Source of the DNA: Pleurotus djamor
Lineage: Eukaryota > Basidiomycota > Agaricomycetes > Agaricales > Pleurotaceae
Assembly (NCBI GenBank): GCA_029747585.1
Contig: JAPEVF010000178.1
Location: forward strand, 1-64,000
Length of the DNA: 64,000 nucleotides
Direction: 5' to 3'
Under the pieces are notes generated by a model. The model was not told the DNA's origin and did not search any database. It saw only the letters and a program-made list of their open reading frames with translations. Every line of letters begins with the position of its first letter. The stretch's first letter is position 1. This document shows positions 1,200-45,938 of this stretch, one piece after another. A program made the translations under genes and the position numbers.

Positions 1200-2746
1200 A
1201 TGGACACTCTCATAGTCTTTGCCGGCCAATATCGCACCTTACAGTATGTTCAAGGTATGCTTAATCGTCCACTATGATGACAATCATTGACCACCTTTTA
1301 CCTTAGCATCCACACTGACATTCCTTACCTGGGACTACCTCATCACCTTGCCGGACGAAGTGAGTGGCATGCGGCCGGACTACCGAGCGCTTCTCAAGTT
1401 TTCGAAACTTGTTTGATTCTCCCTCCACAGGTCAGATACTTTTGGGTGAGTGGGCCGAGTACGTCTCTTCGAGCGGCCAAATAATTATTGTTTAGACAGG
1501 TCGCTGGTCGTTCCCAAGATGCCTCTTCCTATTTGTGAGCTAGCACGAATTAGGCGCATTTTACCACAACCGACGGGTTATCAAGAACAGGTACCAAGCG
1601 CTCGCTTGGATCCTCCTCAATTCGCTGCGTAAGTTTATCTAGGGCTTTCTTTCGAACGCTTTCCTTCTCGAAGAAGGCATGTTGATATGACCCCACGTGT
1701 AGTCTTCATTTTACCATACAAATCCGAGTCGGTTCGTCTTTTTCCTTTCAAAAGTGCCGCAAAAACACTGACATCAGAATCGTCGGGCCTCGCAGCTGTG
1801 AGTATCTCAAACTCGCGCCTGAATTGACCCTCCCGAGGAATTCATCACTCTCCCTAGATGTAAGGATTACCCTTTGAACTACGCTATCTACGCCTGACGC
1901 TTAATTAGGCGAAGCTTGGACCTACCCAGTTGTCGAGCTATCAGGTAGCGATTTCGCAGCGAGATTCTGATCCTGCGCTGAACTCTTACATCCTGCAAGG
2001 TGCCTCTATCATATTCGGGGTCCAGCTGATCCTCGCTTGCCGAGTATACGCCTTATACCATTGCACCAAGAGAATCTTGATCACACTGGTTTTTCTCCTT
2101 GCCACGAATCTTGCAGTCATTCTGTTTGTCATCTTGAAGTTCTCCCCCAGAAGTTCGCGGTTTGCTCTTCCATGGGACCCCAACCAGAACACCTGTATCC
2201 GAGATAGCCCATTATCAACGTATCCGGCGCTGTACGTCTTTTCATCTCCCTGATAGTGACTTCCGTTAATCCCGACGTCTGGCTGCTACTAGTATACCTA
2301 CCACCGTCTTCGACGCCATCGTCTTCATACTGGTGCTCATTCGGGGGATTCCCCATTGGATCTCTTTGAAACGAGCTGGAATCTGCAAAATGACGATCGT
2401 CCAAACTATCCTGCGGGACTCGACGGTCTATTTCCTGTTGTAAGTTCCATTATTTACCGTCTTGCTACGACGCATCCCACATCCTACATCTATAGTGTCT
2501 TGGTTATATACCTCTTGGTGGGGATCGCTCAATTCACGCTCTCTGTACGTCTATTTCATTGCTGTCTACGCCGCGTCCGCTTTTGACAAGTCTTTGTCAC
2601 CTCTTCGGACACAACAGAGTCCAGAAGCGTTCATCGTATACAACTACAGTCTTGCCTTGGTCTCTATCTCTGGAACGCGAATTTTGATCAGCACCAAGCA
2701 ACACTCGTTCACTGAAAGTGATGAGTCGGCATTCATGAGCGGATAG
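1200..2746 (+). CDS. DUF6533 family multi-pass membrane protein (paralogue 1)
   Basis: Basidiomycete integral membrane protein family of unknown function, about 290 residues in about 13 exons. The start gives MDTLIVFAGQYRTLQYVQ, matching the QYAQ-type N-terminus of the paralogues. Exon 2 carries the family signature TWDYLITLPDE. A 15-nt exon at 1431-1445 encodes VRYFW. Next come NRYQALAWILLN and VFILPYKSES, then two 2-nt exons at 1796-1797 (CT) and 1858-1859 (AT), then an exon from 1909. Together they read L-C-E-A-W. The long exon holds VQLILACRVYALY and two hydrophobic segments. The last exon contains the conserved SISGTRILIS and ends in a short Ser/Glu-rich tail. Seven to eight membrane segments are likely, by inspection. 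It is the most diverged of the five left-hand copies. Function is unknown; a receptor-like role is speculation. Confidence 0.8.
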
Positions 2747-3823
2747 TCCTCAATTTCGATCTGCTTGCACCATTAAAACACTGTTTTTGTGGTTTGTGTG
2801 GCTGTTACTCAAATGTACATACTTTTGTAGACACCAAGTAGACACAAGTGACAAAGATGAGATGTTATGCCTGGAGAACGGGGCTTCTGGATGATCGATG
2901 ATCGATTGATCCCCGATGCAGAAGCTCAAACAGCGCCACTATGTAGAGTGCTCTAAGAGTCCGAAGCGGTCGCAAGGACCCATCGCGTCTTGCTTCAAGG
3001 TCAGGTGCTGGTCAGGTGATGTGAATGATGATAGGAGCAACCGGCAGCCGCGCATCCCCAACTTTTCGAACCACCAACGAACTACTTGGCTTCGGCCCTC
3101 AGAGATGTCTTTCGTCTTCTATCTGTGATTCTCCTCTCGACCAAAATTACGGTCATGGCTCTCAACGACTCCTCACACGTTGCATCGGCACGCTCGACAT
3201 CCCGTCTCGGAACATGGATTTACGAACTGTAATGGTATGTTTTCTGTTTGCTGTGATTCTTACAGTCACACCATGAACATCCTTCAACCCAGTGAGAGTG
3301 ATAGTCACCACGAGCTTTATACATACCATATCACTCCCAGAGCGCGCGACGCGAGGAGCTTCGGCGAATTTTTGAGTTCTCAGTGTTTGATCCCCAGTGA
3401 GTCAAATATGAGTTTCATCTTAACGAGCCTGACTGTCTTCGTTTCCAGCATGTATAAGGGGCTTTGACGATCCAGGCACTAGATTCTCCTTGATGAACAA
3501 AGTGAGCTCCCGAGCGAGATGTGAATTGAAGGCGGAGTACTGGTTCGTTGCTCTTGTAACGCCCCAATAACGCCTTTTTAATTTCCTTGGAGATGTAGAC
3601 AAGCATGGTGCTCTGATCTGTTGTCGGTTTCGTGTTCGACTCCGGGTATACCTCACACGATCAGGAAACTTCATGCCGGATAAATGATGTGTCATCTGAT
3701 GTCAGACACTTGTCGCATGCTCGACTTGAGCTCGCCGACTTGTTCTCATCAACTCATCACATCCAGCTTGCTATTAAATGGCGAAACCATGTCAGGAGCC
3801 ACTGTGGCCATTTCCGCGAAACG
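2747..3823. other. Intergenic, no gene recognised
   Basis: About 1.1 kb of 3' flank and upstream sequence. Several 60-95-codon open frames overlap on both strands, but none shows a family motif or a sensible splice pattern. A short run of GATCGAT repeats lies near 2890-2910. Confidence 0.5.
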
Positions 3824-5441
3824 ATGGACCAAGCTTTCCATCAAGAAGCCCTTCAACGATTAGTCTCTGCGGCAAATGATTACTCCCTCGTCCAATACGC
3901 ACAGAGTAAGTCTTCACATCAGGGACTTCACGTTGAAGCCGCACGTCGTTCATTCTCCAACTTTCTAGTTTCATCGTTCACCTTCTTCGTCTGGGACTAC
4001 TTCGTTACTTTACCTAATGAGGTACTTCCTGCTTGATTTTCCTCTGTTTCGTGCCTAATCTGTCGCCGATTTGAAGTCTCGATATTTTTGGGTAAGAATC
4101 CACTCGATGAAAGGCGTCCTACGTACGACTCCATCCCTTTCTAGTCTGGCCAATGGACCTACGCCAGAGTCCTCTTTCATCTCGTGCGTCACGCGTTCCG
4201 CGTTTTAGCCTCTCGCTGACATGATTTCCCCCCGCAGAACTGCTACCAAACCATGGCCTGGATGATATTTAACGTTGTAGGTAGGTAAGCAATCTCATCA
4301 GCACCTCCATGACGGCAACCAATCTTTGGTTTAGTCGCCTTAGTGCCGTACAAATCCGATAACGTGAGCAGTCCTTTGGAATTCACGAGCATTCTCCCAC
4401 TGATTTCGGAGCATCTTAGTTGTATGTGTAGCCCTTCCTCCCTAACGATTCTTATGCTCAATACCACGAACACTTTCTTTAGTTGTGAGCTTCCTCCGAT
4501 GCTCTTCGATACTTCTACTCACCGTCTTGTCCAGGCCGGCTGTGGGGAAGACACCTTGCTGAGGCTTCGGGTATGCACTCGACCCTTTCGCTTGTCGAAG
4601 ACTCTTTGGCCTCATTACGTCTCGATATCATAGCCTGCTGCGTACTGTTCAGCGTCCAGCTGATCTTAGCCTGCCGAGTCTATGGAATTTACCGCCGCGA
4701 TCGACGCATCGCTGCCCTCTTGACCTTTCTTCTAGCTGCAAACCTGTTCACCCAGATATACATCCTTTTGCGCTTCGCCAATGATACCCCGAGAGAGGCT
4801 TTACCTTGGAAACCCGGAGTGTATACCTGTATGGGCAGCTACAGTCAACCGAAAGGCATCTTTTTATCTATGTGAGTTTTCATCCCCGTCCCAACTTTAA
4901 GTATGTTGCTCTGAAATGGCGTCGATTCGTCCAGTATCCCCTCGCTCGTGTTTGACGTTGGGGTATTGACTCTTGTCATTGTTCAAGGTGTTTCGCACGT
5001 TCGCGTTTCTGAACGTGTAGGACTACGCGGCCTGGGATTCATGCGTAGAATCATGAAGGATTCAGTCTTACACTTCATCGTGTAAGTCTCCTTCCCCTCC
5101 CTCGTCCGTGTATTCAAGTGTCTCCTCCGTAAAGTATTCTTCTAGTCTATGTTGCGATGGAACTCGCTTGGTTCAAGCTTCCGGTTCGTGCGTCTTGTCG
5201 TCCTTCGCGCGTGTAGACCTCATAATTGTCGCTGCAGAACGTCCAGGTCTTCTACGCTTACAGCTTTGGAATACCCATCATCTCGGTCGCGGGTACGCGG
5301 ATTCTGATCAGCCTAAAAAAAACAATCCGACGTCTCCAGGCGTATCACCAAAGACTCATTGTATCTTTCTTCGCCTTATACCTCAGGTTAATATACTTGG
5401 TACCAATGACCCACCTCAACTTTCGTGTGATCTACGAGTGA
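3824..5441 (+). CDS. DUF6533 family multi-pass membrane protein (paralogue 2)
   Basis: Same family and exon plan as its neighbours. The ATG at 3824 begins MDQAFHQEALQRLVSAAN and runs into YSLVQYAQ. Exon 2 has SSFTFFVWDYFVTLPNE, the family signature. The 15-nt microexon 4077-4091 encodes SRYFW. It is followed by SGQWTYARVLFHLV, NCYQTMAWMIFNVV and ALVPYKSDN. The 2-nt exons are 4420-4421 (TT) and 4483-4484 (TT). The next exon begins at 4535, giving F-C-R-L-W-G-R-H. The long exon holds VQLILACRVYGIYRRDR and the PWKPGVYTC loop. The final exon has the conserved IISVAGTRILISLKK and a tail longer than in the other copies, which may mean the annotated end is imprecise. It is closest to paralogue 3 and to the - strand copy at 44.3 kb. 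Confidence 0.82.
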
Positions 5442-5825
5442 ATACTTGGACTAATTCGTACCTCGAACGTGACGGTCCAATACCCCAGTGCCTTGATAGA
5501 TTCCGGTCATGGATCGGCTGCGTGGGTACCCTCTATACGTCTACTCACTCCGCTGACCCATCGAACAGACAGAAATTGACAAACAATGATGTATTTTGAA
5601 TGTTCATCACTCATATCTGTCCGAAGTCTGAGAATATCCACGAAACCCAGGGAATTGCACGCCTACCGGAGGCTTATCGTTTTGATTGTTGGATCCCCAT
5701 CTGACGCCGTCAGTCAGACTCTTATCGGTGGATTTACTCCGTGACGGCTAAACAAAGCCTTTCTCGAGTTTGCGTACTTAAGACACAACTTCTCGTCGAG
5801 TGTGGTTTGTCGTCCCTTCAGCATC
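5442..5825. other. Intergenic, no gene recognised
   Basis: Short spacer between two tandem membrane-protein genes. It contains the likely 3' end of the upstream gene and the promoter of the next. No RNA gene or repeat is seen. Confidence 0.5.
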
Positions 5826-7361
5826 ATGGAACAAGCTGCCTTGAAGCAGCTAACCTCTGCGGTTCACGATTTCTCGCTTACCCAATACGCTCAAGGTGCG
5901 CTTTTTGACTTCGTCCTCCGATGTTTGAATGCCTTACATCCTCTTACCCGATTTCCAGCATCATCGTTCACTTTCTTCGCATGGGACTACTTCGTTACTC
6001 TCCCAAATGAGGTAGAGTAGCCTCTTTATTGGATCATCCTGCGTTTCGTGACTCACCGAATACCTTTTTCAGTCGCGATACTTCTGGGTAAGTGATTGTC
6101 CTAAGTCCATGATCCCAACTCTGACAGATCACCTAGTCAGGGAAATGGACCTACGCTCGAATCCTGTTCTTCCTTGTACGTAGCAGAGCCACTCTCACTT
6201 TCGCGAGCAACTCTCATCTTATTTATAGAACCGATACCAAACCATGGGGTGGATGATATTCAACGTCGCTGGTACAGCCCATGCCTTATCCTCTCATCCA
6301 CAGCCCTTAGTGACCCGTATATTAGTCGCCTTCGTACCGTACAAGTCTAACTCAGTGCGTAAAGTCAGGTTTGGGATTACGGGATTACTCAGATCAGGCG
6401 TCTTCTAGTTGTATGTCTCTGGCTAACACCGCGCACTAAGCCTCAAATTTGAATTTCAGTTGTGAGTCTCCCTTCGATCGTTCGTTGTACCGTAACTGAC
6501 TCCTTGCGCAGGCTTAGCATGGGGACGTCACATCGCTGAGGCGTCGGGTGCGTCCTCTCTTCTTCATACCTACCCCGTTCTCAACACCTCCAAAAGCATG
6601 CTGTGTACTCTTCGGCGTACAATTAATCCTGGCTTGCCGCGTTTACGGACTCCATCGTCGAGACAGACGAATCGCCGCCCTTCTCACCGTTCTTTTAGCT
6701 GCAAATCTCGCTGTTCAGATCTACCTCCTCCTTCATTTTGCCGCTGATAGCCCTCGTGTCGCGTTACCCTGGAAACCAGGCGAATACACTTGTACCGGTG
6801 GTCACGGCCAACCGCAAGGGTTATTCTTGTCCATGTAAGGTGTCTCTTCTGTCCTATTCGTCATTCAATTGACTCATACATGCGCTGTCTATACCTACCA
6901 GTATCCCGTCCCTTGTATTTGACATTGCTGTTCTAGCCCTTGTTATCATTCAAGGACTATCGCATATTCGGACTTCCCGACGCAACACGGGGTTTCTGGG
7001 CGTTAAATTCATCCGAGCGATCATGACGGACTCTGTGGCTCACTTCGTGGTGTACGCACATCTCGACCTACTACCCTTCAAGGCCGTTGATTTTCCGTTC
7101 TAGGATTCTGCTCGTCTACGTCGCGATCGAGCTCGCCTGGTTCAAACTCCCGGTGAGTAAACCTCGATTCTAGCGCTGTATGATGGGTCTAATATCCCTC
7201 CTCAGGTGGTGCAGACTTACTTCGTCTACAGCTTTGGTGTTCCCATCATCTCTGTAGCCGGGACTCGCATCTTGATCAACTTGAAACGCCAGGCCGATCC
7301 GAGCCCAACATGGATCATCAACAACCCTACATCCTTATATTCATCTTCAACCTTGCGGTAA
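5826..7361 (+). CDS. DUF6533 family multi-pass membrane protein (paralogue 3)
   Basis: Clean representative of the family, about 295 residues in 13 exons. The ATG at 5826 gives MEQAALKQLTSAVHDFSL and then TQYAQ. Exon 2 contains SSFTFFAWDYFVTLPNE. The microexon 6073-6087 encodes SRYFW. Then come SGKWTYARILFFL, NRYQTMGWMIFNVA and VAFVPYKSNS. Two 2-nt exons, 6409-6410 (TT) and 6460-6461 (TT), join the exon at 6512 to give F-C-L-A-W-G-R-H-I-A-E-A-S. The long exon carries VQLILACRVYGLHRRDRR, two membrane segments and a PWKPGEYTC loop. Later exons read IPSLVFDIAVLALVII, LLVYVAIELAWFKLP and YSFGVPIISVAGTRILINLK. It ends in a Ser-rich tail. All introns have good GT-AG borders and the frame is open throughout. 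Function unknown. Confidence 0.87.
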
Positions 7362-8046
7362 TTCCACGCCGTTCGATCCGTCACAGTTCACGGTAGCGGC
7401 GCTATGCATTCAGGACTTAGCACTTTTATTTACCACCCCATCCTACTTACTTGCTATACCCAGTCTATCAAACTCTCCGGTGAATCCTTTTGTTGACCTC
7501 CTGTTCGCCCAAAAGGACCCTAATCGAAATCCCCTATCGTGACCGGACGACTTCAGTCCCTTTTCCATCGAAATCAAGCCCCCGATGACGTACTCTGTGC
7601 TTGGGGTGCTCTCTCACTCTCATAGCTAAGCTACACCTGCGAGAGTTGGCCGAAAAGGAGGTGGTATGAGATCGGGGCGCTCAACAAAACATTGCCGACG
7701 AATGTTTCTGTGTCTCAAGCTTCCTTATCGTGGGAACTAAGGCTCTCACAATCAGCAGCTTGTAAGCTTAAACTTCGAACACGACCTTGGTCGTCAATCG
7801 ATAATCGATAATCCCTAACGCCTTCGAACTCCCGCTCCCACAACGTCAACTCGAATCAACATCATCTATACATTATCGCTCAGAGCTTTATTTGTCTCGC
7901 TATCGCCATGATCACAATCAAACGATACCCGTTGACAAGACTGTGACTGAATGATGCGCGCAGCGCCGTGGGCGAAAGGCTTCCCATACTTTTCATCGTC
8001 TACATGTATATATACACCCGTCCTGGATCTATGTCGAGAAACCCCA
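7362..8046. other. Intergenic, no gene recognised
   Basis: About 0.7 kb separating paralogues 3 and 4. A short CGATAATCGATAATC repeat lies near 7798-7813. No coding or RNA gene is supported. Confidence 0.5.
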
Positions 8047-9554
8047 ATGAACCCTTTACTCGATCAGGTCCTCGCTGGCTACAAACAATATTACAATACC
8101 CAGTATGCTCAAAGTTGGTATTTCTCTTCTGGTGTCGGTCAGAGATAAGTACTGACTTCGTTGCCAACAGTATCGTCCTTGGCATTTCTGACTTGGGAGT
8201 ACCTTACCACCTTATCTGAAGAGGTCAGGGCTTGAAATGGTGGTATCGTATCCATTCATCTCGGCTGACTGTTCGTCATGACCAGATTGAATTATTCTGG
8301 GTAGGCACTTGATCCCTCTATCAACTGAAAGTGACTCAAATATTTCAGACGGGGCGCTGGAATACCCCAACCCGTATCCTCTTCTTCATTGTGTGTAGTT
8401 CACTGCTCTTGCCCTCACCTACAAACCACATCTGACTTCTCGTTAGAACAGGTACCAAGTCTTCGCCTGGCAGATCTTTCACACATTTGGTCAGTTGCAA
8501 CCGCGCCGCCGTGGATATTTCTGACAGCCTCCGAGGCGTATTTACTCCTACTCGAACGCACAAAGTGAGTCGTCAACGTCAACGTCCCCTACAACAAAGC
8601 TTCTGACAGCTAGTTCACAACCTAGTTGTATGTCCCGCCCTTCCTTGACTTCGAAGTCGGTTGACCTGTATTGTTGTCGACTGGTGTTCATCTTTTCACG
8701 GTTAGCTGTCCGTACCCTTCACTCCTTCTTCGCGGTAATTGCACGCCTGATCACTTTCCTTGAAGGTCAAGCATGGGTACATTACATCGTTGGGATCTCC
8801 GGTCAGTCGTCCTTTATCTACATTCAATCCCTGCTCATAGTCTCGTTCTTGTATCTAGCCCTTATGGTCGNTTTTTTCTGTCAATTTGATCCTCTCGCTT
8901 CGGATCTTTGGCTTGTATGGCCGCGCGCGATGGGTCGCCATCCTTCTTGGAATAATGCTCCCAGCGACCATCACTGTTCAATCCTACGTTCTCGCACGAT
9001 TCTCCCCCGACTTCATCTCAATTCCACTGCCATTCTCAAAGAATATTGTCCCTTGCAACCCAAGTTCAACGGAGCACCTCTACCTCGCTCTGTAGGTTGT
9101 ATCTCGAGTAGTGATCCTTCGCACTCATCTCAGAACTCCCAGGATTCCGGGGCTTGTGTTTGATACCCTTGTGCTGACACTCGCACTTGTCCGTGGGTTG
9201 ATACATATCCAGAGGCAGCGAGTGGTAGGCTTCAGGGGATCGAACATTGTTCGTGTCCTGACCAGGGACTCAGCCTCCTACTTCTTGGTGTACGCCCTCA
9301 TGATCATCTTCCTCTGGCTGCTTTCTCAACTAAGACCCAGTATTTTGCTCATTTACACCTCGTTGATCATCTCTTGGGTCAAGTCGCCGGTGCATTCACT
9401 TTTTCCTGAGCTTCCTTCGACCATACCATATTAATCATTTCGTTATCAGGGTGTCGAAGCGTTCGCTACCTTCGGATATGGCTTGGCTACGATATCTGTC
9501 GCGGGCTCTCGTATGCTGTTCAACTTGAAGCGAGAAAGCACGTCCTCTATGTAG
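8047..9554 (+). CDS. DUF6533 family multi-pass membrane protein (paralogue 4)
   Basis: Together with the next gene this forms a diverged sub-pair of the family. The ATG at 8047 gives MNPLLDQVLAGYKQYYN and TQYAQ. The signature exon reads AFLTWEYLTTLSEE, with Glu replacing the Asp of WDY. The 15-nt microexon encodes IELFW. TGRWNTPTRILFFI and NRYQVFAWQIFHTF follow. The 2-nt exons are 8626-8627 (TT) and 8706-8707 (CT). The exon at 8766 continues F-C-Q-A-W. A later exon reads LSLRIFGLYGRARWVAI. The end reads ATISVAGSRMLFNLKRES plus a short tail. At 8871 an N before a six-T run sits where the frame is one base too long, so the N probably marks an unresolved homopolymer and not a real mutation. Function unknown. 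Confidence 0.8.
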
Positions 9555-10156
9555 ACTCCAGCGCTCGTGTGTCTGCGATTTGCTCAGCCGTCCCCCATTT
9601 ATCGAGATATCTACCTTTGTTTCTTCTCTGAGTATTCTTGAGAACTCGTCCTCATATCATGATTATCTTCTTTCCGATCCCAAATCCTCGCAACGTTCGC
9701 ATCTTGAGCCGAATTCTACAGCATGACTTTCTGCTCTGGTGTTTCTTACGGTGACGGAAGTCAATATCACCTTTGATGATCGACCACAGCGCCGTATGAT
9801 GATGGTAACATCGCCTGACACAGGTTTCCTTACTGTGGGAACCTTCCTTCCCACATTCAGTATTGGACAGGCTCAACCAAACGCGAGCATGGTTGCTTCA
9901 AGCTGGTTTCTTGGACGCTACTCTCAGGCCGCCGACCTCCTCACTGCTCTCAGAGCCACCCTCGGACTTGCTTCTACCGATTCTTAAGCTTCTTTGTCAG
10001 GCGCGAGATCATTTTCGGAATCATGAATCAAGTCATGTTCTTGTTCCATGACAGTACCGTGAATGATACACCTATGATACGCGCCGTCGTCAAACTTAAA
10101 CCTTCATTCACTTTATAAGCTCCATGGCTGTCCCCAAACTACGCTGAGAAACCCCA
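9555..10156. other. Intergenic; duplicated 3' flank of paralogue 4
   Basis: About 600 bp without a convincing gene. The first part, roughly 9590-9727, aligns with the 3' flank of the next gene (11735-11925). In both copies the matching frame stays open (see findings), which suggests the duplication included downstream sequence. Confidence 0.5.
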
Positions 10157-11673
10157 ATGGCATCCATCCTTGATGAAATCTTCGCTGGCTACGAAGAGTA
10201 CTGCAAGTCTCAGTATGCTCAACGTGAGGATCTTCATCTGTCGCCGTGATACCGTCTGATGCGTTCAACAGTTTCATCTTTGACCTTCTTGACTTGGGAA
10301 TATATTATTACTTTATCCGACGAAGTCAAGCCTTCCTTGCCATCGTAACCTCTGAACCGTCCGGCTGACTTTCCGTCATGATCAGGTAGAATTATTCTGG
10401 GTATGTCTTTGGCAAGTCGTGGTCGACCATGACTCACACTTATTAGACGGGGAGCTGGGCTACCCCGACACGCATCCTCTTCTTCATTGTGCGTCACTGC
10501 TCGATTTCACCTCTCAAATCTCAAATCTCAACTCCCATCCCTCTTCCTTAGAACAGATACCAGGTCTTCGCATGGCAAATATTTCATACCTTCGGTAAGT
10601 CACATCTTTGCGCTGTGAATCAAACTCACCGTCTACAAGGAGTCTTTACACCAAATCGAACGGAGAAAGTAAGTCGTCATTGCTATCAAACTACTGCGAA
10701 AATTCTAATTGATGTCTCTACGTCTAGTTGTACGTTCTGTCCTGCCTCCGTTCAACTCGAAAATCGATTTACCTGTATTGTTCTTGGGCATCTGTGTTCT
10801 TGCGGTTAGTTGTCAGTATTCTTCAGGTGCCTGTCTGGGTGCTGTCCATCTGATGAACGTCCTTGTAGGTCGGTTATGGCTCCATAATCTCATCGGGATC
10901 TCCGGTTATTACTCCCTTGCTCTTCGATCCGATCCCCACTCATCGTTGCCTCCAGCCATTTCAGTCGTCCTGCTGGTCGACTTAATTATCTCTCTCAGAA
11001 TCTATGGGCTATACAATCGCGCACGATGGGTCGCCACCCTTCTCGGAATAATGCTCTTGGGCACTATAGCTGGACAAGCCTACATCGTTGCGGTTTTCTC
11101 TCCGGATTTCATCCTAACGCCGTTACCTTTCTCAAAGAACATCGTGGTCTGCAATCCGATTTCGACGGACCACTTATACCTCGCACTGTAGGTCTCATTT
11201 GTTTTTTCTGTTAAGTCTTGATTCGGCCAATACTAATCACGTTGAGCCTTTTAGGCTACCTGGCCTTGGGTTTGACACGGTTGTACTCATGCTAGCACTC
11301 GCTCGCGGGCTACTGCACATTCAGCGGCTGAGAGGGGTTGGTGCCAGGGGATCCAACATTGTACATGTCCTAACAAGGGACTCGGCGTCCTATTTCTTGG
11401 TGTATGTCATGGCAAGTATCTTTCTAGCTTGGTCGCTTGCTCAACAGTGTGGTACCAGCATTTTGCTCATTTACACCGTGCTGACCATCTCTTGGGTTAA
11501 GCTACCGGTGAGTTGTCCCTTTCCCAAGCATTCCTTTGACGGTGTAAGACTAATTGGTACGTTTTCAGGGCGTCGAATCGTTTACCACGTTTGGGTATGG
11601 CTACGCGATGATATCCGTCGCGGGCTCTCGCATGCTTCTCAACCTCAAGCGGGAAAGCATACCCTCCAAATAG
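10157..11673 (+). CDS. DUF6533 family multi-pass membrane protein (paralogue 5)
   Basis: Close tandem duplicate of paralogue 4. The ATG at 10157 gives MASILDEIFAGYEEYC and then KSQYAQ. The signature exon reads SFLTWEYIITLSDE. The 15-nt microexon encodes VELFW. TGSWATPTRILFFI and NRYQVFAWQIFHTF follow. The 2-nt exons are 10728-10729 (TT) and 10810-10811 (TT). They join the exon at 10869 to read F-C-R-L-W-L-H. The long exon carries ISLRIYGLYNRARWVATL and two hydrophobic segments. A further exon reads PGLGFDTVVLMLALARGL. The last reads AMISVAGSRMLLNLKRES and stops at 11671-11673. The frame is open throughout. Function unknown. Confidence 0.83.
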
Positions 11674-12011
11674 CTTGACACCGTATCCTATCCCCGTACA
11701 TACATACTCACACCTACCGTGAACATCCCTTTGGTTTCCCATTTGTCGAGGAATACACGTTTGTAACTTATTCTTCCCTGAACGCCCTTGAAATCTCAGG
11801 CTCACGTCACCTCTCTCTTCTTTCCGATTCGGACTCCTTGCAAAGCCTACGCGAACGTCTTCAAGCCGGCGAAGCCGAGCTGCGTACAACCGCCGAAACG
11901 CTTCGCAAGCTCTGTCGGTGACTAAGGACCAACAGACTTCCCTCCTTATAATAGCACTTTCACATCCATGGGACCGCGGCTTCATCCCCTCTCCATTCGT
12001 GATCTAACATA
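11674..12011. other. Intergenic with a coding-like stretch
   Basis: Spacer before the carboxylesterase. Between about 11741 and 11925 one frame reads a Leu/Ser/Glu-rich peptide (SLQSLRERLQAGEAELR) that aligns with the corresponding frame after paralogue 4. It lies beyond the stop codon of paralogue 5 and no splice route joins the two. It may be a lost C-terminal extension. Confidence 0.4.
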
Positions 12012-16054: not shown

Positions 16055-16090
16055 TCCAGCCAGTCATTTGTCAATTTGTATCAACCAGCC

Positions 16091-30266: not shown

Positions 30267-30331
30267 TGATAAACTAAAAGGTACAGGGTATTATATGCGT
30301 AGCAGGACGAATTTCCTTGGATGAATGAACA

Positions 30332-33316: not shown

Positions 33317-33470
33317 TATAAAACGGACGTATATTCCATAGAATAAGAACAAGTTACCTTTCCCCTTCATTTTCCCTTCTCCTCAGTGTTTCTAAGCTCG
33401 CCGCTTGCCTTGCTCGCCTCCGTCTCTCTCGTCGCGTCGTTTCCTCACCAGCCAGACTTTTGTATTGCTC
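33317..33470 (+). promoter_or_regulatory. TATA box and CT-rich tract: likely + strand promoter
   Basis: TATAAAA at 33317-33323 is followed by a strongly pyrimidine-rich stretch (about 33355-33470), the usual context of transcription starts in filamentous fungi. No convincing protein follows. A possible short multi-exon reading starts at the ATG near 33620 but quickly overlaps the opposite-strand gene. Confidence 0.35.
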
Positions 33471-33825
33471 AAGACATCATCCTCGCCGCTCGTCGCTCTC
33501 GTTTTACGACCGTTTTGTTTCCTTACTCATTTTACTCACCTACTTGAACAGGTCAAGGACCGCCAGCTTGGTTAGCCGGAGGCAACCTCCTCGCGTTCAA
33601 CACATCACACAACATCACAATGCCATCCGGTCAAAGACGACCATCATGTACCCTACCCTATTAATTGGTGGTCTCGTGGCTGAATCCGCTATAGTGGGAT
33701 TCTATCTCGACCTCGAGCGCCTCAGGAAATGCGTATCTCCAATCTCTTCGAACACATTGCCATTTCTACGGATAGAATGTATCCCTAACGCGTAGGTTGA
33801 CCTACGCGTCGCAAATAAATACTGC

Positions 33826-34675: not shown

Positions 34676-34826
34676 GGTTCTGCTGCGAATTCGTTCCGCT
34701 GGTTCGACGCGATGAGGCAGGCGCGCGCATCACAGTTTCGTGGACTGTGTTCGGGTGATAGGAATCTTCATTTGGAGATAGGAGATGACAGGAGAACACC
34801 GGAGTACAATCGAATTATCAAGACGT

Positions 34827-36063: not shown

Positions 36064-36494
36064 CTAGTGAGATAGATAATGATGGTAGGTAACTGCAAGA
36101 GTGACGAGTCTTAGGGAAGGGAAGGGGTAGAGAAAACGACTTACCTAGTAAAATCATGATTCTTAGTAGGCTCGGATAAGGTCTGATGGTGATAGTAGAT
36201 TGACGCTAGTTTGAGGGCGTTGAGGATAGCAATCAATTTGAACGGTGGATGGACGTGCATGTCATGATCTTAGTCAAACATCGTGCACCCGGCCTGTAAT
36301 TGGAAGTTGGTCACTTAATTAGTCCCCGTACAGTTCGCATCTTTTTCTCTTTTGGTCGAGAGCACACACGCAAACTTGATGAGAATGCTTCAAGCCAGTA
36401 TTGCACGGTATAGAAAATTGATCCATTACCAATGCTTGGTACATTCTACGGCCACCCATTTATGGTAAGCTGTGAGCTCATGTATTTCACAAAT
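36064..36494. other. Intergenic, no gene recognised
   Basis: About 430 bp between two SDR paralogues of the same orientation: promoter of copy 2 and 3' end of copy 3. Nothing else is seen. Confidence 0.5.
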
Positions 36495-37711
36495 TCAGTC
36501 GAACCAAACCCCTCCGTCAATAGTAACCGTTTGCCCTGCAATACGATCACTTTTCTAGCCCACGAAAGAATTGATATAGATCTACTCACCGGAAATATAG
36601 CTAGACTGTTCCGAGGCCAAGAAGGAGACCAGATTGGCTACATCAACAGGCTCGCCGACGCGCTTGACGGCGGTCATTTGAACATACTGTCAAGAACAAT
36701 AGGTTAGGCGATGAATACGGTGCTTCAGGGAAGATGACGTTACCGAATCTTGGCTAGGCGACTCCGCGTACTTGTCAGTCTGCTCCTTAAGGCTCATGAC
36801 TACAAGGAGAAGAATATCAGTCATTCTCCAACAAATGTGGGGGATATGATACTTACTCAACGGGGTGATGACGGCGCCGGGTGCGTAGGCGTTGACTGTA
36901 ATCCCAAAGCTGCCGAATTCGGCGGCTGTCAGAGCGTGACTAGCATGAGCTACTGTTCACCAACACAAATGAGGAACCTACCGGCAGATTGAGTCAGGAA
37001 ACGGATGGCAGCCTTCGTGCCACAGTAGATAGACATCATCGGATAACCTACAGACAAGCATTAGCGAAAGATATACTACCCTATGACGGTCCTTACCTTT
37101 CTTCCCGGTACTAGAAGAGGCACCTGTAGTACGGGTGAAGGTCGAACGCTTTTGAACGGCGAAAGTAGAGTAGCTTACCGATGATGCGTCCACCGCGCTT
37201 CTGCTCAATCATTACCTTGGCAGCCTCCTTGTAGCAAAGATAGACACCTCGGTAGTTAGTGGCAAACATGTTATCGATGTCCTCGACTGTGCCTAGAGAA
37301 CATTGAGTATGAGCAACGAACGTACGCTCTAGAGTACGGTCTCACTCTCAAGGATCGGTTTAATCCAGGCAGTTCCTGCGTTCGCGACCATCTATCGAAG
37401 GAGGATAGTATGTGTACTAACGGTCGGAAATCAAAACTTACCACATCAAGTCCTCCAAGCTGACTGACCGTCTGAGCGACGAGGTTCTTGACGTCGTCTT
37501 CGACAGAGACATCCGCGGGGATGACGACAACCTTGACGTTCGGACTGGCGGCCAGAATACATTCACGGACAGCGTCTAGCTGGTCGCGCTTAGTGGGGAT
37601 ATCACTAATGACGACATCTAAGCCATCGGAAGCGAGACGAGTCGCGACAGCCTGCCCGATTCCCTGGGCGGATCCGGTGATGACGGCAACACGACGATGA
37701 GGAGTAGACAT
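36495..37711 (-). CDS. Short-chain dehydrogenase/reductase, diacetyl/acetoin reductase-like (SDR copy 3)
   Basis: Third SDR paralogue, about 260 residues, frame open. The ATG at 37711 (MSTPHRRVAVITGSAQGIGQ) is preferred over an upstream in-frame ATG at 37780 because it aligns with the starts of copies 1 and 2. Further motifs are ISDIPTKRDQLDAVREC, ADVSVEDDVKNLVAQTV, an NAG exon ending WIKPILE, FATNYRGVYLCYKEAAK, KRGGRIIG, and the catalytic YCGTK in MMSIYCGTKAAIRFLTQ. FGSFGITVNAYAPGAVITPL and VDVANLVSFLASEQSSY follow, then the end GQTVTIDGGVWFD. Probably a cytosolic NAD(P)H-dependent carbonyl reductase. The substrate cannot be assigned from sequence. Confidence 0.85.
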
Positions 37712-38958
37712 GCTGAGAGGGTGGTTTATGGGTTGTAAGAGGCTGGAGAGGTCGAAGCTGATGCTTTGTTGAACCTCCAAGACGACTATTCAGCGCTTTT
37801 TGAGTTCATGATGAAAGAGCGCGCAGGGCTAAGCAAGGCGTTGGTGTGAGCTAAACGCACGACCTTGAATCCAGGGTGGTACATCCTACGGAGCGAAGGA
37901 TCTTTGTTGAACACGCGGATTTGACCTGATAAACCGACAGGATCGACGTGATATCGCCGTGAGCGCGAACGATGATCTGCGCGGAAGGACATCCCGAAGG
38001 TATGAGCAAGAGTTGTCATACGAAAGTGACAAAAAGGAGATTATGGTAAGGGCAAGGTAAGGGTTTTGATTATCGATCGGAATTGTTGAGAGCGCTCACC
38101 TGGCTTCGACAAGTGCGCAGCGCTGGCAAGAAAGTCAGGGTGGGGATACGACCCATGACCAGCACAGACAGAACCCGAGTGCGACGACGGCTGAGCTGTT
38201 GCCGTCACCAGCCAGGTATGTGTACAAGGTACTGAGTTCTGCGCGTTTGACCATCCATAACCTTGCAATTGGCGGATTAAGTACAAAACGCGAGAAAGTG
38301 GTCTTCACTTGATATGAGAGGTCATTAATTCATTCATTGTTCAATGTATGAACCTTTGAATTCACCGACGTACCACTTCGGTCGTCTGGATGGGCACAGA
38401 GCCTCAGCTTTCTTAAGGGTTCTCCCAGACTGTCCGACTCTTGCTGTCCTCAAGACCTTGCGGAACTTCAGCGTAATTGATTCGATGCTTTTTTGGTCCG
38501 ATACTCGTGTATTGTCCGAATTCTGCAGTGATAACATACAGCTGTGGGATTTTAGGAGCGAGGATATCGAAAACGTTGCAGGAGGATGGGGGAACAGGGA
38601 TGGTTGGTTGGTCGTCGGAACCAAGGCCCAAGGAAGGCTCGATCACGCGCGAGGTGAATCAGGAGCTCCTATAGGGTCAGTTAGGAGAGAGCAACCAGAA
38701 ATGCGACGGTGTTCCGAGTCAAAGGCTCTATCAGCAGCAGCCTGAGCTAGCTTCAAGCCATATCTATCCGCTCTAATACCGCACAGACCATGATACTCAC
38801 GCATCTGTGACACAGATGGCTCCCTTCGCGCACATTCAGATGTAACCCTGATGTTGCGGTTGGGGCTAGGGACTATCGTACAAACGAGGTGTATGTATGT
38901 CTGACAGTCTGATAGTCTGTTATCAAAGACAATAAAGCGGAGCAAAGGGGGAGTGTGA
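37712..38958. other. Intergenic, no gene recognised
   Basis: About 1.25 kb. Overlapping open frames of 65-133 codons occur on both strands near 38344-38745 without recognisable motifs, signal peptides or splice logic. The left part holds the promoter of SDR copy 3. Confidence 0.45.
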
Positions 38959-40602
38959 TCATAAGGTCGTCGCGGATGAGGGCAGATAAATACGGTCACT
39001 GTTTACTCTATTCTCCGATTCGTGGGACTGCCTTTTGAGGTTGATGAGAATCCGAGTACCGGCCACGGATATGACAGGAACCCCAAAGCAGTAGAAGAAA
39101 GTAGTTTGAACCGGCTAAAGACATGTCAGATAACGCAAGACGTGAGCCGAAAATGTTGACCTGAAGTTTCACCCAAGTCACTGCGAGGATTAGGTAGACA
39201 AGGAGTATCCTGTTATAGTACAGAAGGTGGTGAGGATGATGTGGCTACGGGAAGGTAAGTGCGAAACGAGGGTTACGTACACCAAAAAGTGAAGAACCGA
39301 GTCCCTCATGATGGTGCGCATTAGCTCGATACTTCTAAAGCGTGCACCACGAGAGCGTCGAATATGAGAAATCGTGGGCAAGATGACCAGAATCACAGCG
39401 GCAGTGTCCACCGCAAGCGATGGAAGCCTAGAACAGTCCGAGTCAGCCGGGGAATGGTCTCCTTGGATCAGGATGTGCGTATGTGGATGTGTGGATCGTA
39501 CATTGAGAAAAATATCCCGCGAGGCTGCGACTCGCTGAAGCAAGCGAATTCCCCAGGGTTCCAAGGAACGGCCACACGGTGATTCTCATAAGTAAAATGA
39601 AGGAAGATATAAATTTGGCTGGCGAGATTCGCAGCGAGGAGGAAGATTAGGAAGGCGGCGATCCGTTTGTCTCGGCGATAAACAGCGTAAACGCGACATG
39701 CTAGGATTAGTTGGACGCAGAAGAGGACAGATACACCTGTTGGGGTTGAACGTGTTGAACGTTGAGCGTTGACGTTGAGCACTTAGACTTGAGAGTGAGA
39801 GAAAGAACGGGGCACGGACCTGACGCCTGCGCGATGTGTCCGCTCCATGCTAGACCTTGATGCAGAAGCGCGTTCGTTCCATTAGTTATGTAGTGACAAT
39901 GTCGTTGAATGCAACGAGGAAGCACATACAGCTATATTAGAACCGCTTCAAGGGTCAGATCGACGTGGGTGCAAGCGGTGACACTTACAACTAGAATGAC
40001 AGAAAATGAGCGGCTGTTTCATAAGTACTTACAAGAAATTAGACGTACTTTGTCCGATTTATACGGGAAAAATGCGACTAGATAAGATAGATATCAGCTA
40101 CACGCAGACGGAAATTGAATTGAGTAGGGTAGCTGTACTACCTACGACATTGAATATCATCCAGAACATGGTTTGATATCGATTCTACTCCTTCTCAGTG
40201 CTCGAACTCGAAGATTGAGATAAGAGGATAAGTGGAAAGGGGACGTACAACATGGAAAAGGATCCGAGCCAGCGTCCATTCCCCGGACTGCAATGAGATC
40301 GCGTTTGAGTGGGAAGAGTATAGAGTATACCTCCGCTCGACGGCTTACCCAAAAGAACCGAGACTATGTATGGGTGATGGTCAAGGAACGAATGCGAAGG
40401 GCGGTATCGAGGGAAACGGTACCTCATTGGGTAGGGTGACAAAGTAGTCCCATACGAAGAACGCAAAAGAAGAGGCTAGGGGATGGGGTAAAGGTGAGGT
40501 GACGCGGTGGTTCGCAGCGAAGGCGCACGAACCTTGAGCATACTGAACAAGAGCGTAGTCCCTGGCGGCAGCGGCGACTGCATCCTTCGAAGCTTGGTCC
40601 AT
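38959..40602 (-). CDS. DUF6533 family multi-pass membrane protein (paralogue 6)
   Basis: Same family and exon plan as the + strand cluster but inverted. The ATG at 40602 gives MDQASKDAVAAAARDYALV and QYAQ. Exon 2 reads SSFAFFVWDYFVTLPNE. The 2-nt exons are 39989-39990 (TT on the - strand) and 39930-39931 (CT). They join the exon starting at 39855 to read K-F-C-L-A-W-S-G-H-I. The long exon carries VQLILACRVYAVYRRDKR and PWNPGEFAC. A later exon reads RSIELMRTIMRDSVLHFLV. The last reads FGVPVISVAGTRILINLKRQ and stops at 38959 after SSATTL. Two unresolved bases near 40685-40698 lie just upstream of the start. Function unknown. Confidence 0.83.
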
Positions 40603-43600
40603 TTTGGAGGTGAGTTGGCGAAGATCCTTGGGATGTTCGTGTTTTATCAGAGACGGCGATAGGATGGAAGCTTCCAATCATCAGNAAAGTGAAACCTNAC
40701 AGCAAAAGTGAATCGTGATGAACTGCGGAAGATCCAAATCATCTCAACTTCGCGAAGCTGGGATAGGTGGGCATCTGCCATGGCATCGAAGCCATTAGTA
40801 GCCCAACCAGTCGAGCAGATGTGCAACCGCAGGGTGGATATGCCGGCTCGCAAAGGGCATTCCTTAGCATTTCCGTCGGGGATTTTTGAAAAATTGTGAA
40901 GGCACATCAAACAGCAAAAATGTGGCCGGCCGTGTCCACTGTTATATTTTTGGAGTCTGTGGAGAAATCAAAGCGACGCAATACAATACAGAAATAAACA
41001 GCGCACTCATCGACCTCAGAATACACAAGATGATGGAGAAGCTGGTTACCGATGGAAAGTGGAGCGGCAATGATTGCATCGTCAGGTCAGGCGCTGTACT
41101 CGTGATTGACACAACGACATTAGGATAGGGTGGCTGTCGGCGCACGAAGACCACGAAACAACCTCTAAGAGATGGTAGTAGATAGAAAAAGGTGATGACT
41201 GGCCATTGGCTACCTGAGCCATCGTTGGACGCGAGGGTTGATACGAAGTGAGCTCGAGCTGGTGTTCCCAAGGAATATAAAAAACGGACGACACCGCGGC
41301 AAAAAAAAAGTCACTCAAGAGTCCAAGCATACTTGGAGCTTGAAGACCGCAATTAGCATCTGGGTATGAGTGCATGATTATCAGCTTTGTTGGGAGCGAA
41401 CGGCAGCGAAGTATACTGTACGCCCCACCAATACGCCGGTTCCCAGTCTATTCTCCGAGTAATGGAGGATTCCCTCACTGACACGGTAGGTATTTTCCTG
41501 ATGAGCTGAGCATCGTTGCTGAGCGTGAGTTGGCACAGGAGATGGGAAGGAATTCGAGCAGTGTGCACTGCGGCGAAAACGGGCAAGCCTGAGGTTGTAC
41601 TTCTTCCTGTCACTCGTCAGGCGGTTTACCTGTCAAGCACCGATCCCAGATAAGTACCTCTGGGGAAACAAGCAAAACTCGATAAGCGTGAGGAGAGTCA
41701 GAAGAGACACCCACACCATACTCTATGTTTCCGTCCCAGTTTGAGGGGTATGGTTCATGTTCGCGTGTGAGGCTAGTCTAGACCATGACGTCATATGGAT
41801 GGTCCGGGATGAGTTCCGATTGGTCGATCGGCATTGGCCCCGTGGCTTTTTCCCGCTGACGCGTTCGCTTTCTTGCTCACCGCCGTCACCAACGCCGAAG
41901 CACCTTTGGCAATGTGTCCGACCCGCTCTCTCCCGAGTCATCGATAGACGAATTCGACCAATCGTTCCTCTGAATCCCTGCCCTTTCCGACGCGACTTCC
42001 TCTTCTTCAAGGTTGGCCGGGTGATTGACCTCGGGATCTGCCATTGGGGGCAGGTCCGAATGTGTGAACTACTCCCTTCTTACTCACAGAGCTTCTGCTC
42101 TCCACTGTACCCAGCCATTTTCAAGCTTGTACTGTGGTGAGTTACTCGATGATTCTTGATTCTGATATGTGTCTTTAACGGAAATGCCTAGCGTTCCGAC
42201 TCCAAGCCTTAGGGCTGTATGTAATACAAGGAATTTCGATCATCAAGTTCTCCAAAATTCCGCGTTCAAAGCCGGAGAAAAAGAGAATGCTATCGATGCT
42301 GTCCAGGAGGCAAGACCGCACAACTGCGAGCACGATGCCCCAGTTACCCATCTTCGTCTAACTGGTGGGCTTGCTTTTTTATCCTCCTTTATGTCTATGA
42401 ACTAAGCGGTACTCTTTAGGACGCCAGTCTCGAGAAGGAGCACCGTTCCACGTTATTTGAACCGCCCTCGCCCACTTGGTCACGTCCCTTCCCCGGGTTC
42501 ACCGTTCTGGCTCATCAGACGTCAACGAGCATCCAGGTCCGCCTACTGAAGCAAGGCGTCAACAGCTCGCAAGGGGATCAGCGAGGGAAACCGCAGAGGA
42601 GGATGGTACACAAAGGACGACACACGGCCAGCCTACATCTCTTTCAGCCTGCAATCACGGCTGGACATCGGGGAGCGACCATGGCTAGACTTCGCTGGAA
42701 AAGCGGAGGTATCAATGCCTCGACGCCGGATGTCGGAATCATTCCGCTATCCATCTACCACCATCTCCTTCGGTCGATCACACACTACCCTTTGCTCGTG
42801 TGCGTACGGTCCTGGTGGATGAACGATGAACGTTTTGCGAGGGCGGGGGACGATGAGGAGAAGAGCCTTTTCAGGCCGAATTGAATACTGAGCGCAGAAA
42901 AGTCGACGAAGGTGGATGAATAAAATCCGAATGTCGATGAACACTACAGTCTACGATCTCATCGCCCCCGGTGAGCACAGCGTTCCTGGAAGTACTTCGT
43001 GTTACTGATGTTCTTCGGTTCTCTGTAGCCCCATCCCGACACCTCCCGCCTTGTGTCTCTCACTCGTGGGTGCTAGGCCTGAGGTTATATCATGGCGTCG
43101 AACATGATATTACCGAGTACACCCTCATGATGACACTCTTCCCATGCTGCTTCTGTCGAAGCTCCAAGTATGTGTCCCCCACCTCGCTAGGCTATGGCGG
43201 CAACGGGGTGTATGTTCCTGCCTTTGTTGGTGGACCATCCCCCTCCGCGATTCTTCACGCCACACATCTCCCGGTGTCCGTATAGCAACGGTGCTGGTGG
43301 ATATACGGCCGTGACGCTGTCTAGAATGAAGGACAATGTCAATCGGACGGACCTGAGACATCATCCCGCTTACAGTCTCCCGCCTCCCTCTCTGGTGTCT
43401 ATGCCCTACCGTGGACTTCGATGAAACGTTAATCACCATGAGCTCGGGTTTACTCATCATGTTCCTCACAACCATGTTCTCCGTTACCCGCGCCCGGCCC
43501 CTCAGCCTCTCCAATATTTCTTTGCACCCGCGACTGGGTTCGCTGTTTGCCGTTGTTGTTCAAAGCTTTCATCCCCAGCGCAGTCTTCTTGGACTGCCAA

Positions 43601-44333
43601 GCGGGCCACTAGAGGACATTGGCTTTGAAGTTTGGACTTGAAGTCGATCCACCGTGTGCGCTAGCTGAAGGAGTATCAGTCTCCTTGTTGTCGGGAAGAT
43701 ACTTCTTTAAATGGTGCCTGGGGGTTGATGGGGTGTCTGGAAGATTGACTTGGATGCTGTTGGTGATGGTCAGGGATGAGTGTTGAATTCGTAGCGAGCT
43801 GAGACGTAGTCACGGCAACGGTGGTGGCGGCGTTGGTGGTGCAGCATTGTTAGCTGACGGCGTTGGGTACCTGGCGAGGGAAAGAAATGCTGCACGAAAT
43901 TTGGTTCGGCCATAAGGACCGGATTATAGGCGTAATGATCATGGACCATCTTGGCAGACGCGATCTCTCACTCACCCAGCCGCTCGTACTCCTTGGAAGC
44001 TTGCCGCCCTCGATTCCATCGTCATCCTCCTCGGTGGGCGCTCTCATTCCTGCTATGTTTCTATCACGGAGGGTGGTCAATGACGGGGTTGTTGAGGATG
44101 GAGAGTGGTGATGGGAGTTGGAATGGCAGGGATGACCAGACTGTCACGCCTAGAGTAGGGCTTTTTGCCACCCGCCGTTTTTACCAGCCCCTCTTACCAT
44201 ACCTCGTTCCGTATTCCGTACACTTATAGCTAGAGTAGAGTACTAGTCAGATACTCGATGTATAACTTGATCACCGCTGTTAAACCTATGTAGAGGTCAT
44301 GTTGAACACATGGAAGGGGATCTCGCCACTGTA
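40603..44333. other. 3.7-kb region without a recognised gene
   Basis: The longest stretch lacking an assignable gene. Open frames of 60-129 codons occur in all frames (for example + strand 41757-42140 and 43411-43641, - strand 43125-43514). None shows a family motif, and neighbouring frames do not splice into a convincing protein. A reading at 42430-42690 (RSTLFEPPSPTWSRPFPGF) is protein-like but unassigned. It may contain decayed genes or transposon remains. No terminal repeats were seen. Confidence 0.4.
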
Positions 44334-45938
44334 CTACCGCAAGGCAGAGGACGAAAAGAGATACATCGAATCATTCATGATACGTCTAGAGACATCTGAT
44401 TGTCGTTTGAGACTGATCAGGATGCGTGTACCCGCAACAGAAATAATGGGAATTCCGAAGCTGTAAACAAAGTAGGTCTGCACATTCTACGGGAATTATG
44501 AGAACTCCGCACACGAATCACGGCGAACAATTCGACATACTGGGAGTTTGAACCAGGCCAGCTCTATCGCAACGTAAACCAAAAGGATTCTGCAACGAAA
44601 GGAGTCCATTGAGCCTGAGGTCTTGAACAAAACCATATGCGCAAAGCATACTCACACAACAAAGTGCAGGACGGAGTCCTTCATGATTTGAAGCATGAAC
44701 CCAACACCTCGAAGTCCTACCCGTTTAGAGGAGCGGATATGCGAAAGTCCCTGGAGGACGACTAGACTCAACGCCGCTGTGTCGAAAACGAGGGAAGGAA
44801 TTCTACGGGATGATTATCCACAGGTCAGTGACAGGTTCACGAAGCCAACCTGAGAAGTGAAAGAAATCTCACATGGATAGGAATAGTCCCCGGGGTTGAC
44901 CGTGGCTGCCCATACACGTATATACGCCTGGTTTCCAGGGTAGAATTTCTCGAGGATTGTCGGAGGCGAAGTGCAGCAGGAGGTAAATCTGGGTAATGAG
45001 GTTGGTAGTCAACAGAGCGACCAGGAGGGCAGCGATGCGCCTGTCGCGTCGGTAGAGTCCGTAGACTCGGCAGGCTAAGATTAGTTGGACACCGAAAAGG
45101 ACACAGCAGGCTTTCGGGGGTGGGATTCAGTGAGTTAGCCACATTGATTGATACTGAAGGGCTTTACTCACCAGAGGCTTCGGCGATATGTTTTCCCCAT
45201 GCCTGACCTAGATAACAAGGTCACTCATGGCGGATGGAACCCATGATGAAGGGAGCTTACAACTACAGGATACATTCGCGACATTCACAGTGAGCCCAAC
45301 GGGGAAGCATGAAACGCGATACATACAACTTGAATAAAGTACACATTAATGAGAGGATGTCGTAGATTACATGACGACGTACTTTCTCAGATTTGTACGG
45401 CACGAAGGCAGCTGAATGAGATATCAACCGCTCAGCAATCATCACACTAGGATTGAGCTGCTCTCTTACCGGCAATATTGAAGATCATCCACGCCATAGT
45501 TTGATAGCGGTTCTGTCAAGTCCATGGTTTCAGTGCTTGCCGTAATGAGCAGCGCAACCATGTAACGTACCAGGTAAAAGAGGACTCGTGCGTATGTCCA
45601 TTGTCCAGACTACGAACAGCGTGTTCGAGACAAGCGACAGTGGGAGTCATTGTACGGATGCTTACCCAAAAGTATCGAGACTTTGGGGAAGGTAAGAACG
45701 GAGTATCAACCAAAGTGAATGGAAATCTACGCACCTCATTCGGGAGGGTAACGAAGTAATCCCAGACAAAGAAAGTGAACGACGAAACTGAAGTGATGCA
45801 GTATGAGGGCATGACGCGCTTCTGAATTGAAAGATAGAACTGACCTTGGGCGTATTCGACAAGGGAGTAGTCTCTGGCCGCGGAGGTGAGCTTGCGGATG
45901 GCTTCTTCGATCTGAGCTTGCTGAGTGGCTGGGTCCAT
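44334..45938 (-). CDS. DUF6533 family multi-pass membrane protein (paralogue 7)
   Basis: Closest to paralogues 2 and 3. The ATG at 45938 gives MDPATQQAQIEEAIRKLTSA and then YSLVEYAQ. Exon 2 reads SSFTFFVWDYFVTLPNE. SRYFW, QWTYARVLFYLV, NRYQTMAWMIFNIA and AFVPYKSEK follow. The 2-nt exons are 45327-45328 and 45261-45262 (TT on the - strand). They join the exon starting at 45207 to read F-C-Q-A-W-G-K-H-I-A-E-A-S. The long exon carries VQLILACRVYGLYRRDRR and PWKPGVYTC. The last exon reads FGIPIISVAGTRILISLKRQ and ends LFSSSALR, very like paralogue 3. The frame is open throughout. Function unknown. Confidence 0.85.

Follow-up and report, generated by a model that had tools for sequence, protein, structure and literature searches.

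A 64,000-nucleotide stretch of the Pleurotus djamor genome (GenBank assembly GCA_029747585.1, contig JAPEVF010000178.1, positions 1 to 64,000; hereafter the window) carries seven genes for membrane proteins of the DUF6533 type, each of which contains, at the same place, two dinucleotide units enclosed between AG and GT. The best reading of these units, and one that can be held with high confidence from the DNA, is that they are two constitutive, consecutive exons of 2 nucleotides (nt) each, spliced in sequence, which supply a conserved cysteine of a seven-helix protein. The inclusion of two dinucleotide exons, as put forward in the original prediction, is strongly favoured by its fit to all 25 modelled loci in 16 clusters, the saturation of the surrounding introns, the codon-like substitution of the units and the presence of the cysteine in proteins of other genera.

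Paired units in the window genes

All 14 dinucleotides were found at their predicted positions in the seven genes, each flanked by AG and GT (Table 1). Units 1 and 2 read CT and AT in gene 1, TT and TT in genes 2, 3, 5 and 7, and TT and CT in genes 4 and 6, while microexon 2 of gene 7 is CT in its closest copy (L011, contig C538), a synonymous difference. The predicted phases also hold: E6, the 29-nt exon on the upstream side, ends in phase 0, E9 on the downstream side starts with GC or GT, and the four bases with the next base or bases encode Phe-Cys (Leu-Cys in gene 1), followed by two residues and Trp, in agreement with the modelled loci. The predicted junction thus runs from the E6 end ...TCTAACTCA through TTTT into GCTTAGCATGG... 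of E9 in gene 3, and from ...TCTGAGAAA through TTTT into GTCAGGCATGG... in gene 7. Both strands of the window were scanned for the full pattern (AG-NT-GT, 38-90 nt, AG-NT-GT, 38-90 nt, AG-G[CT]-6 nt-TGG), which gave seven matches, all in these genes and none outside them, against a chance expectation of 0.03 per window (mean of 40 first-order Markov windows of 64 kb each).

Two elements of the prediction stood in part. PYKS and AEAS/GIS do occur as flanking exon ends but are not universal, since genes 4 and 5 have PTRTHK (read from the gene 4 copy L042) and PNRTEK, and gene 1 has VELS. Skipping both units breaks the frame as long as the flanking sites are fixed, but not once splice sites may shift: six of the seven window genes could regain the frame at a GT lying four bases into the donor (GTNNGT), and gene 2 at one lying seven bases in.

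Table 1. Positions in the window of the paired dinucleotide units and of the exons on either side.
Gene	Feature	Positions	Strand
1	Upstream exon E6 (29 nt)	1703..1731	+
1	Microexon 1 (CT)	1796..1797	+
1	Microexon 2 (AT)	1858..1859	+
1	Downstream exon E9 (36 nt)	1909..1944	+
2	Upstream exon E6	4335..4363	+
2	Microexon 1 (TT)	4420..4421	+
2	Microexon 2 (TT)	4483..4484	+
2	Downstream exon E9	4535..4570	+
3	Upstream exon E6	6326..6354	+
3	Microexon 1 (TT)	6409..6410	+
3	Microexon 2 (TT)	6460..6461	+
3	Downstream exon E9	6512..6547	+
4	Upstream exon E6	8536..8564	+
4	Microexon 1 (TT)	8626..8627	+
4	Microexon 2 (CT)	8706..8707	+
4	Downstream exon E9	8766..8801	+
5	Upstream exon E6	10640..10668	+
5	Microexon 1 (TT)	10728..10729	+
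5	Microexon 2 (TT)	10810..10811	+
5	Downstream exon E9	10869..10904	+
6	Upstream exon E6	40049..40077	-
6	Microexon 1 (TT)	39989..39990	-
6	Microexon 2 (CT)	39930..39931	-
6	Downstream exon E9	39820..39855	-
7	Upstream exon E6	45383..45411	-
7	Microexon 1 (TT)	45327..45328	-
7	Microexon 2 (TT)	45261..45262	-
7	Downstream exon E9	45172..45207	-

Splicing models across the gene family

The genome searched comprises 55.9 Mb in 1,413 contigs, the window being part of contig C505, and loci were found by searching it with the large exon beyond the units (E10) of four members. The family amounts to 28 loci, namely the seven in the window, close copies on other contigs, which are probably the other haplotype, and further paralogues. 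The count of 25 modelled loci leaves out the damaged L017, L019 and L050 and retains L045 (C661), which has a stop in E9. These 25 form 16 clusters at 90% identity, with a median between clusters of 37% (22-82%). In the identity table and the profile test gene 4 is represented by L042, as E10 of the window copy contains an N; the two therefore cluster together by construction, and their introns differ at one place only. The N lies next to a T run in the coding exon (window about 8871) and looks like assembly uncertainty, since the close copy L042 (C1332) reads through without it.

For the interval from the donor that follows the 29-nt exon to the 36-nt exon, every GT-AG solution was enumerated that has one or two exons of 1-60 nt and no intron shorter than 38 nt. 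The model with two 2-nt exons is open in all 25 loci, one solution always yielding [Phe/Leu]-Cys-x-x-Trp, and it is the only open solution of its kind in 20 of them. A second such solution gives another peptide in genes 3 and 6, L010 and L015, and the same peptide in L054. The next commonest class with one or two small exons, a single 16-nt exon, is open in 10 of 25 loci, with differing peptides; among models with one small exon of 1-60 nt no size class exceeds that figure, and five loci allow no frame-keeping single small exon of any such size. The model with no extra exon and fixed sites is out of frame by construction, because four bases equal one modulo three. In shuffled intervals (1,500 shuffles for each of the 16 clusters), an open pair of 2-nt exons arose in about 1% of trials and a pair giving [FL]C..W in 0.16% (means). 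By length and position the units fit the definition of a microexon (at most 30 nt, internal, with canonical sites and included in mRNA), having 2 nt between AG and GT in every one of the 25 loci.

Conservation and codon-like behaviour of the units

The constancy of the units stands out against introns that are saturated between distant paralogues. Introns i6-i8 of 105 pairs less than 60% identical align no better than shuffles (mean z 0.37, with 0.3% above 3), while intron similarity is still present in some closer pairs, mainly relatives of genes 4 and 5. Synonymous sites of genes 2, 3 and 7 are near saturation (proportion of synonymous differences, pS, 0.66-0.75), and the ratio of non-synonymous to synonymous change (dN/dS) lies at 0.04-0.22 in nine of ten pairs tried, the tenth giving no defined value. 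In nine within-cluster pairs, the introns differ at 175 of 1,518 columns and the AG-NN-GT hexamers at a single position out of 108, where the difference turns TTT into TTC.

The variation that does occur in the units follows the genetic code. In 24 loci unit 1 reads TT, and in the remaining one CT; all 24 loci with TT have a pyrimidine as the first base of unit 2, encoding Phe, and the locus with CT has A, encoding Leu. The last base of unit 2 is always T and E9 always starts with GC or GT, which gives Cys throughout.

Splice sites and intron lengths

Splice-site strength was compared with 72 control introns of the same family, from which the donor matrix was itself built. Donor scores are 7.16 after unit 1 and 6.56 after unit 2, as against 6.42 for controls and 0.81 for decoy GTs. 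The introns around the units measure 49-80 nt, versus 45-74 nt in the controls, and the whole E6-E9 interval 157-201 nt. Canonical sites of working strength and introns of normal length, as expected of a microexon, are therefore present, and the string AGNTGT occurs only once in the 4,101 nt of the 72 control introns.

The cysteine in proteins of other genera

Besides P. pulmonarius, P. eryngii, P. ostreatus and P. cornucopiae, the database searches led to three proteins from outside the genus. When four spliced P. djamor members are aligned with these outgroups, two cysteines never vary, the one from the microexons and one in the loop that follows helix 4; the outgroup residues at the microexon position are Phe-Cys in Flagelloscypha and Rickenella and Ala-Cys in Roridomyces. 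A profile was built solely from the three outgroup proteins, and identical typed flank letters were used in every form of the query compared. Against this profile the Phe-Cys form beats the skipped form in all 16 clusters and, in 12 of 13 clusters, also the form made with the 4-nt donor shift. As a separate observation, the loop Cys of E10 is replaced by Trp in L055 (C538:66914-67144) and kept in its close relative L050 (C524).

The spliced protein of gene 3 matches DUF6533 (PF20151) with 56.4 bits, against a cut-off of 24.1, over residues 21-64, upstream of the microexon-encoded residues, and the seven transmembrane helices of a DUF6533 seven-helix membrane protein were found. A Foldseek search returned no match at E <= 0.001; the best E was 2.9e-3, and the 50 matches listed were all entries of G-protein-coupled receptors (GPCRs).

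Deposited Pleurotus annotations

Genes 3 and 7 have exon sequence in common with deposited P. djamor proteins (ONZ45). Among the 23 deposited Pleurotus models read, those that cross the junction break in differing ways, and others begin beyond it or end within it. P0002 skips the units by means of an in-frame acceptor; P0009 (P. eryngii) and P0015 (P. pulmonarius) have Val-Gly at the junction, as from a shifted donor; P0003 of P. djamor (LYVCPF...) corresponds to L014 read from unit 1 on into its donor; and P0017, P0018 and P0020 of P. ostreatus start only at E10. Since Leu-Tyr/Cys-Val follows the E6 counterpart in P0008, P0012 and P0024 of P. pulmonarius, these models suggest that unit 1 is present in that species as well. 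Owing to the paired 2-nt exons, the whole gene family would thus be misannotated. In addition, P0013 (P. djamor ONZ45_g8172) is a deposited model of 631 residues that apparently fuses two adjacent family genes.

Composition of the family and exon layout

The 28 loci were derived from 31 E10 matches, of which two extra ones on C572 (one overlapping, the other a 20-residue fragment) and one on C592, a non-member by eye, were set aside; two further genome searches for family loci added none. The fragment (C572:2527-2586), which contains a stop and lies about 1.3 kb from the degenerate L019, is possibly a further relic. Among the damaged loci, L017 (C152), with a 5-nt insertion in E6, and L050, with a TGA in E6, keep both units. 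The most degenerate, L019 (C572), has no recognisable E6, a unit 1 acceptor that is now GG, and unit 2; it is the only one of the 28 loci seen with a single intact unit.

Exon lengths are near-constant in most loci, being 53, 15, 39, 43 and 29 nt before the units and 36 nt after them; the third of these is 42 nt by eye in genes 4 and 5. The small 15-nt exon E3 (e.g. 6073-6087) has the same length in most paralogues and comprises five codons, the last of them Trp. Some automatic exon picks were misfits (E3 of gene 5 and L040, E5/E6 of L017, E2/E6 of L041, E2/E4 of L044 and E4 of L046); these fell below the score cut-offs or went unused, except E6 of L041, which was replaced by hand.

Paired units with the motif were not seen in wider DUF6533 loci, neither in a pattern scan of L001-L008 and L066-L085, with L001-L008 additionally translated, nor in L086-L089; L067 and L070 have pattern matches without the motif, and L089 has a single AGNTGT. 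No clean contiguous copy emerged from a search for an intronless or retrocopied gene across the junction, the 11 matches being exon by exon, and the best candidate (69%, query residues 15-53) turned out to be window gene 7, running from E10 into the preceding intron with one stop.

Outside the genes, positions 1-540 of the window hold 11 copies of a 33-nt repeat with the palindromic core TGTAGACATGTCTACA, spaced 26-60 nt apart. A repeat of the same kind, with flanking sequence, lies beside the related gene L044 on contig C778.

Proposed splicing and alternative explanations

If both units are exons, three introns (49-80 nt) would be packed within four coding bases of each gene, in phase 0 before the Phe/Leu codon, after the second base of that codon and after the first base of the Cys codon. 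The resulting messenger RNA (mRNA) would read upstream exon-[NT]-[NT]-G[CT]..., and transmembrane helix 3 would open with [Phe/Leu]-Cys-x-x-Trp. Because 2 nt cannot seat acceptor and donor complexes together, the introns would be removed in sequence, each removal joining the next donor to the new upstream exon, as in recursive splicing, and the product would be the same regardless of which intron is removed first. The frame points to constitutive use of the units, and it is likely that the cysteine and the frame together keep the arrangement under selection. By analogy with many GPCRs, in which a disulphide reaches the loop joining helices 4 and 5, the microexon Cys is probably bonded to the conserved Cys of that loop.

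Recursive splicing had been offered as the alternative to inclusion, yet it is not a true one, for the mRNA would be identical and the introns would presumably exit one by one anyway. Its stricter form, in which no bases are retained and the units are ratchet points, would draw on the closeness of acceptor and donor, 2 nt apart, to those described for such points (PMC8605326). We give this form next to no credence: the frame breaks with fixed flanking sites when the four bases go, two bases separate AG from GT where a ratchet point would have the sites directly juxtaposed, the E6-E9 interval (157-201 nt) holds short introns and not a long one, and the two bases vary solely as codons would. Equally implausible is a conserved intronic element, such as a splicing silencer or an RNA-binding site; TTGTATGT-like strings do recur at unit 1, but the base changes obey the genetic code across two introns (C/T at the third position of Phe, and Leu with unit 1 CT), and the frame requires one extra base modulo three. 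A single small exon of another size, using one unit or another site, is very improbable. Some loci do permit it, an exon of 16 nt being open in 10 of 25 and one of 22 nt in 7 of 25, with 10 nt as a further example, and several deposited models (P0003, P0006 and P0008) take extra bases from the junction. Yet no size serves beyond the 10 loci, different paralogues would gain different peptides, and in five loci no such exon can be fitted.

Shifted boundaries without microexons were not among the alternatives originally considered, and they include the strongest rival, a donor displaced by 4 nt. E6 would then extend to the second GT of GTNNGT and be joined to E9 over one intron of about 150-200 nt, the units would be intronic, and Val plus Gly, Arg or Ser would replace Phe-Cys. 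With E9 left as it is, this solution preserves the frame in 13 of 16 clusters, other shifted solutions exist for the remaining clusters (gene 2, L055 and L041), and P0009 and P0015 read VG as it predicts. The second GT is missing, however, in four of 25 loci (gene 2, L014, L055 and L041), and where present (21 of 25) its score averages 1.39 (normal donor 7.36, decoys 0.81); a GT of this kind is also found in 36 of 72 control donors. Furthermore, the shift would require an intron roughly three times as long as the controls (at most 74 nt), the Cys conserved in other genera would be lost along with profile score in 12 of 13 clusters, and the two conserved AG|NT|GT units would be left without any account. 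P0009, moreover, is hardly likely to be transcript-based, as its apparent start lies before E2 and not in the usual first exon. Shifted boundaries are accordingly judged improbable as a class, though less so than the other alternatives.

Several observations nevertheless weigh against two included dinucleotide exons, a conclusion drawn from genomic sequence as regards the mRNA. With movable boundaries, some frame-keeping model free of microexons exists in all 16 clusters, although not the same one throughout, and for gene 1 the profile comparison is a tie, at 27.4 bits with the shifted donor versus 27.6. In the five loci with two open solutions (genes 3 and 6, L010, L015 and L054) the choice of the Phe-Cys solution used the motif itself, both solutions being Phe-Cys in L054. 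The unit acceptors are slightly weaker than controls (5.08 and 4.45 versus 5.53), on a matrix that separates controls poorly from decoys (3.47), and the last base before the donor is T in both units, not the G that is usual there. The outgroup proteins are annotated models of unknown support that were compared as protein only, and P0023 alone among them is aromatic where the P. djamor members have Trp. Finally, [FL]C..W appears in none of 23 deposited Pleurotus models from five species.

Beyond the inclusion of the two exons, the tandem pair might be an obligatory stepwise device, in which three short introns leave in fixed order, each step rebuilds the next donor and any slip shifts the frame. 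This stronger proposal is speculative and, on balance, unlikely. If true, it would place a built-in gate, perhaps developmentally regulated, on the making of a receptor-like protein family, and it would mean that the fungal spliceosome routinely copes with consecutive 2-nt exons.

Significance and comparison with known systems

Since a pair of 2-nt exons cannot be defined in the usual way, the family offers a natural multi-copy system for studying how the spliceosome orders tightly packed introns. The stretch that is broken in the deposited models carries a Cys conserved in three other genera, and out-of-phase joints elsewhere in Basidiomycetes may conceal more such exons. Among the open-licence papers listed by the literature searches, none reports a tandem pair of 2-nt exons or a microexon in a DUF6533 gene in its title or abstract as shown, which is no proof of absence.

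The nearest fungal parallel is the 1-nt exon reported, with support from RNA sequencing, for CYP621A of Fusarium (PMC12940212), a report that also cites an earlier account of 2-5 nt exons. That exon is likewise spliceosomal, needed for the frame within a conserved motif and overlooked by annotation, and it was argued, as here, from orthologues and from a relative having the residue without the intron (PMC12940212). As reported, however, it is a single 1-nt exon in an Ascomycete P450, whereas the present case concerns two 2-nt exons in divergent Basidiomycete paralogues and is known from DNA. The 1-nt exons described for APC11 in Arabidopsis (PMC4674806) and VPS55 in land plants (PMC8831610) are similarly shorter than 3 nt, bounded by AG and GT on both sides, conserved and misannotated; they are single and proven by complementary DNA, with minigenes in addition for APC11, in contrast to the tandem 2-nt pair. 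Consecutive microexons are on record as well, including adjacent ones of 5 and 12 nt in plants, in rice (PMC8831610) and in Peptidase M1 (PMC11096116), and the alternatively spliced ones of 3, 18 and 22 base pairs (bp) in human RPS24 (PMC12686416), but these are longer than 2 + 2 nt.

Other small internal fungal exons, namely the shortest exon (6 bp) given for P450 genes of Phanerochaete chrysosporium (PMC1184071), like P. djamor a Basidiomycete, and the microexon regulated by skipping described for Xlr2 of Trichoderma virens (PMC11121469), are longer and single. The ratchet points of Drosophila share a donor right past the acceptor and stepwise removal (PMC8605326), but are described as having nothing between AG and GT and as lying in long introns, unlike the two coding bases and 49-80 nt introns found here. 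At the protein level, SNB1 of Coprinopsis, reported as a DUF6533 protein with seven predicted transmembrane helices (PMC10949477), shares the Pfam domain and the helices, whereas the P. djamor subfamily is distinct, expanded and equipped with the exon pair. Altogether, 1-nt exons and adjacent longer microexons are already known, and what is unusual here is a back-to-back 2-nt pair kept across a gene family.

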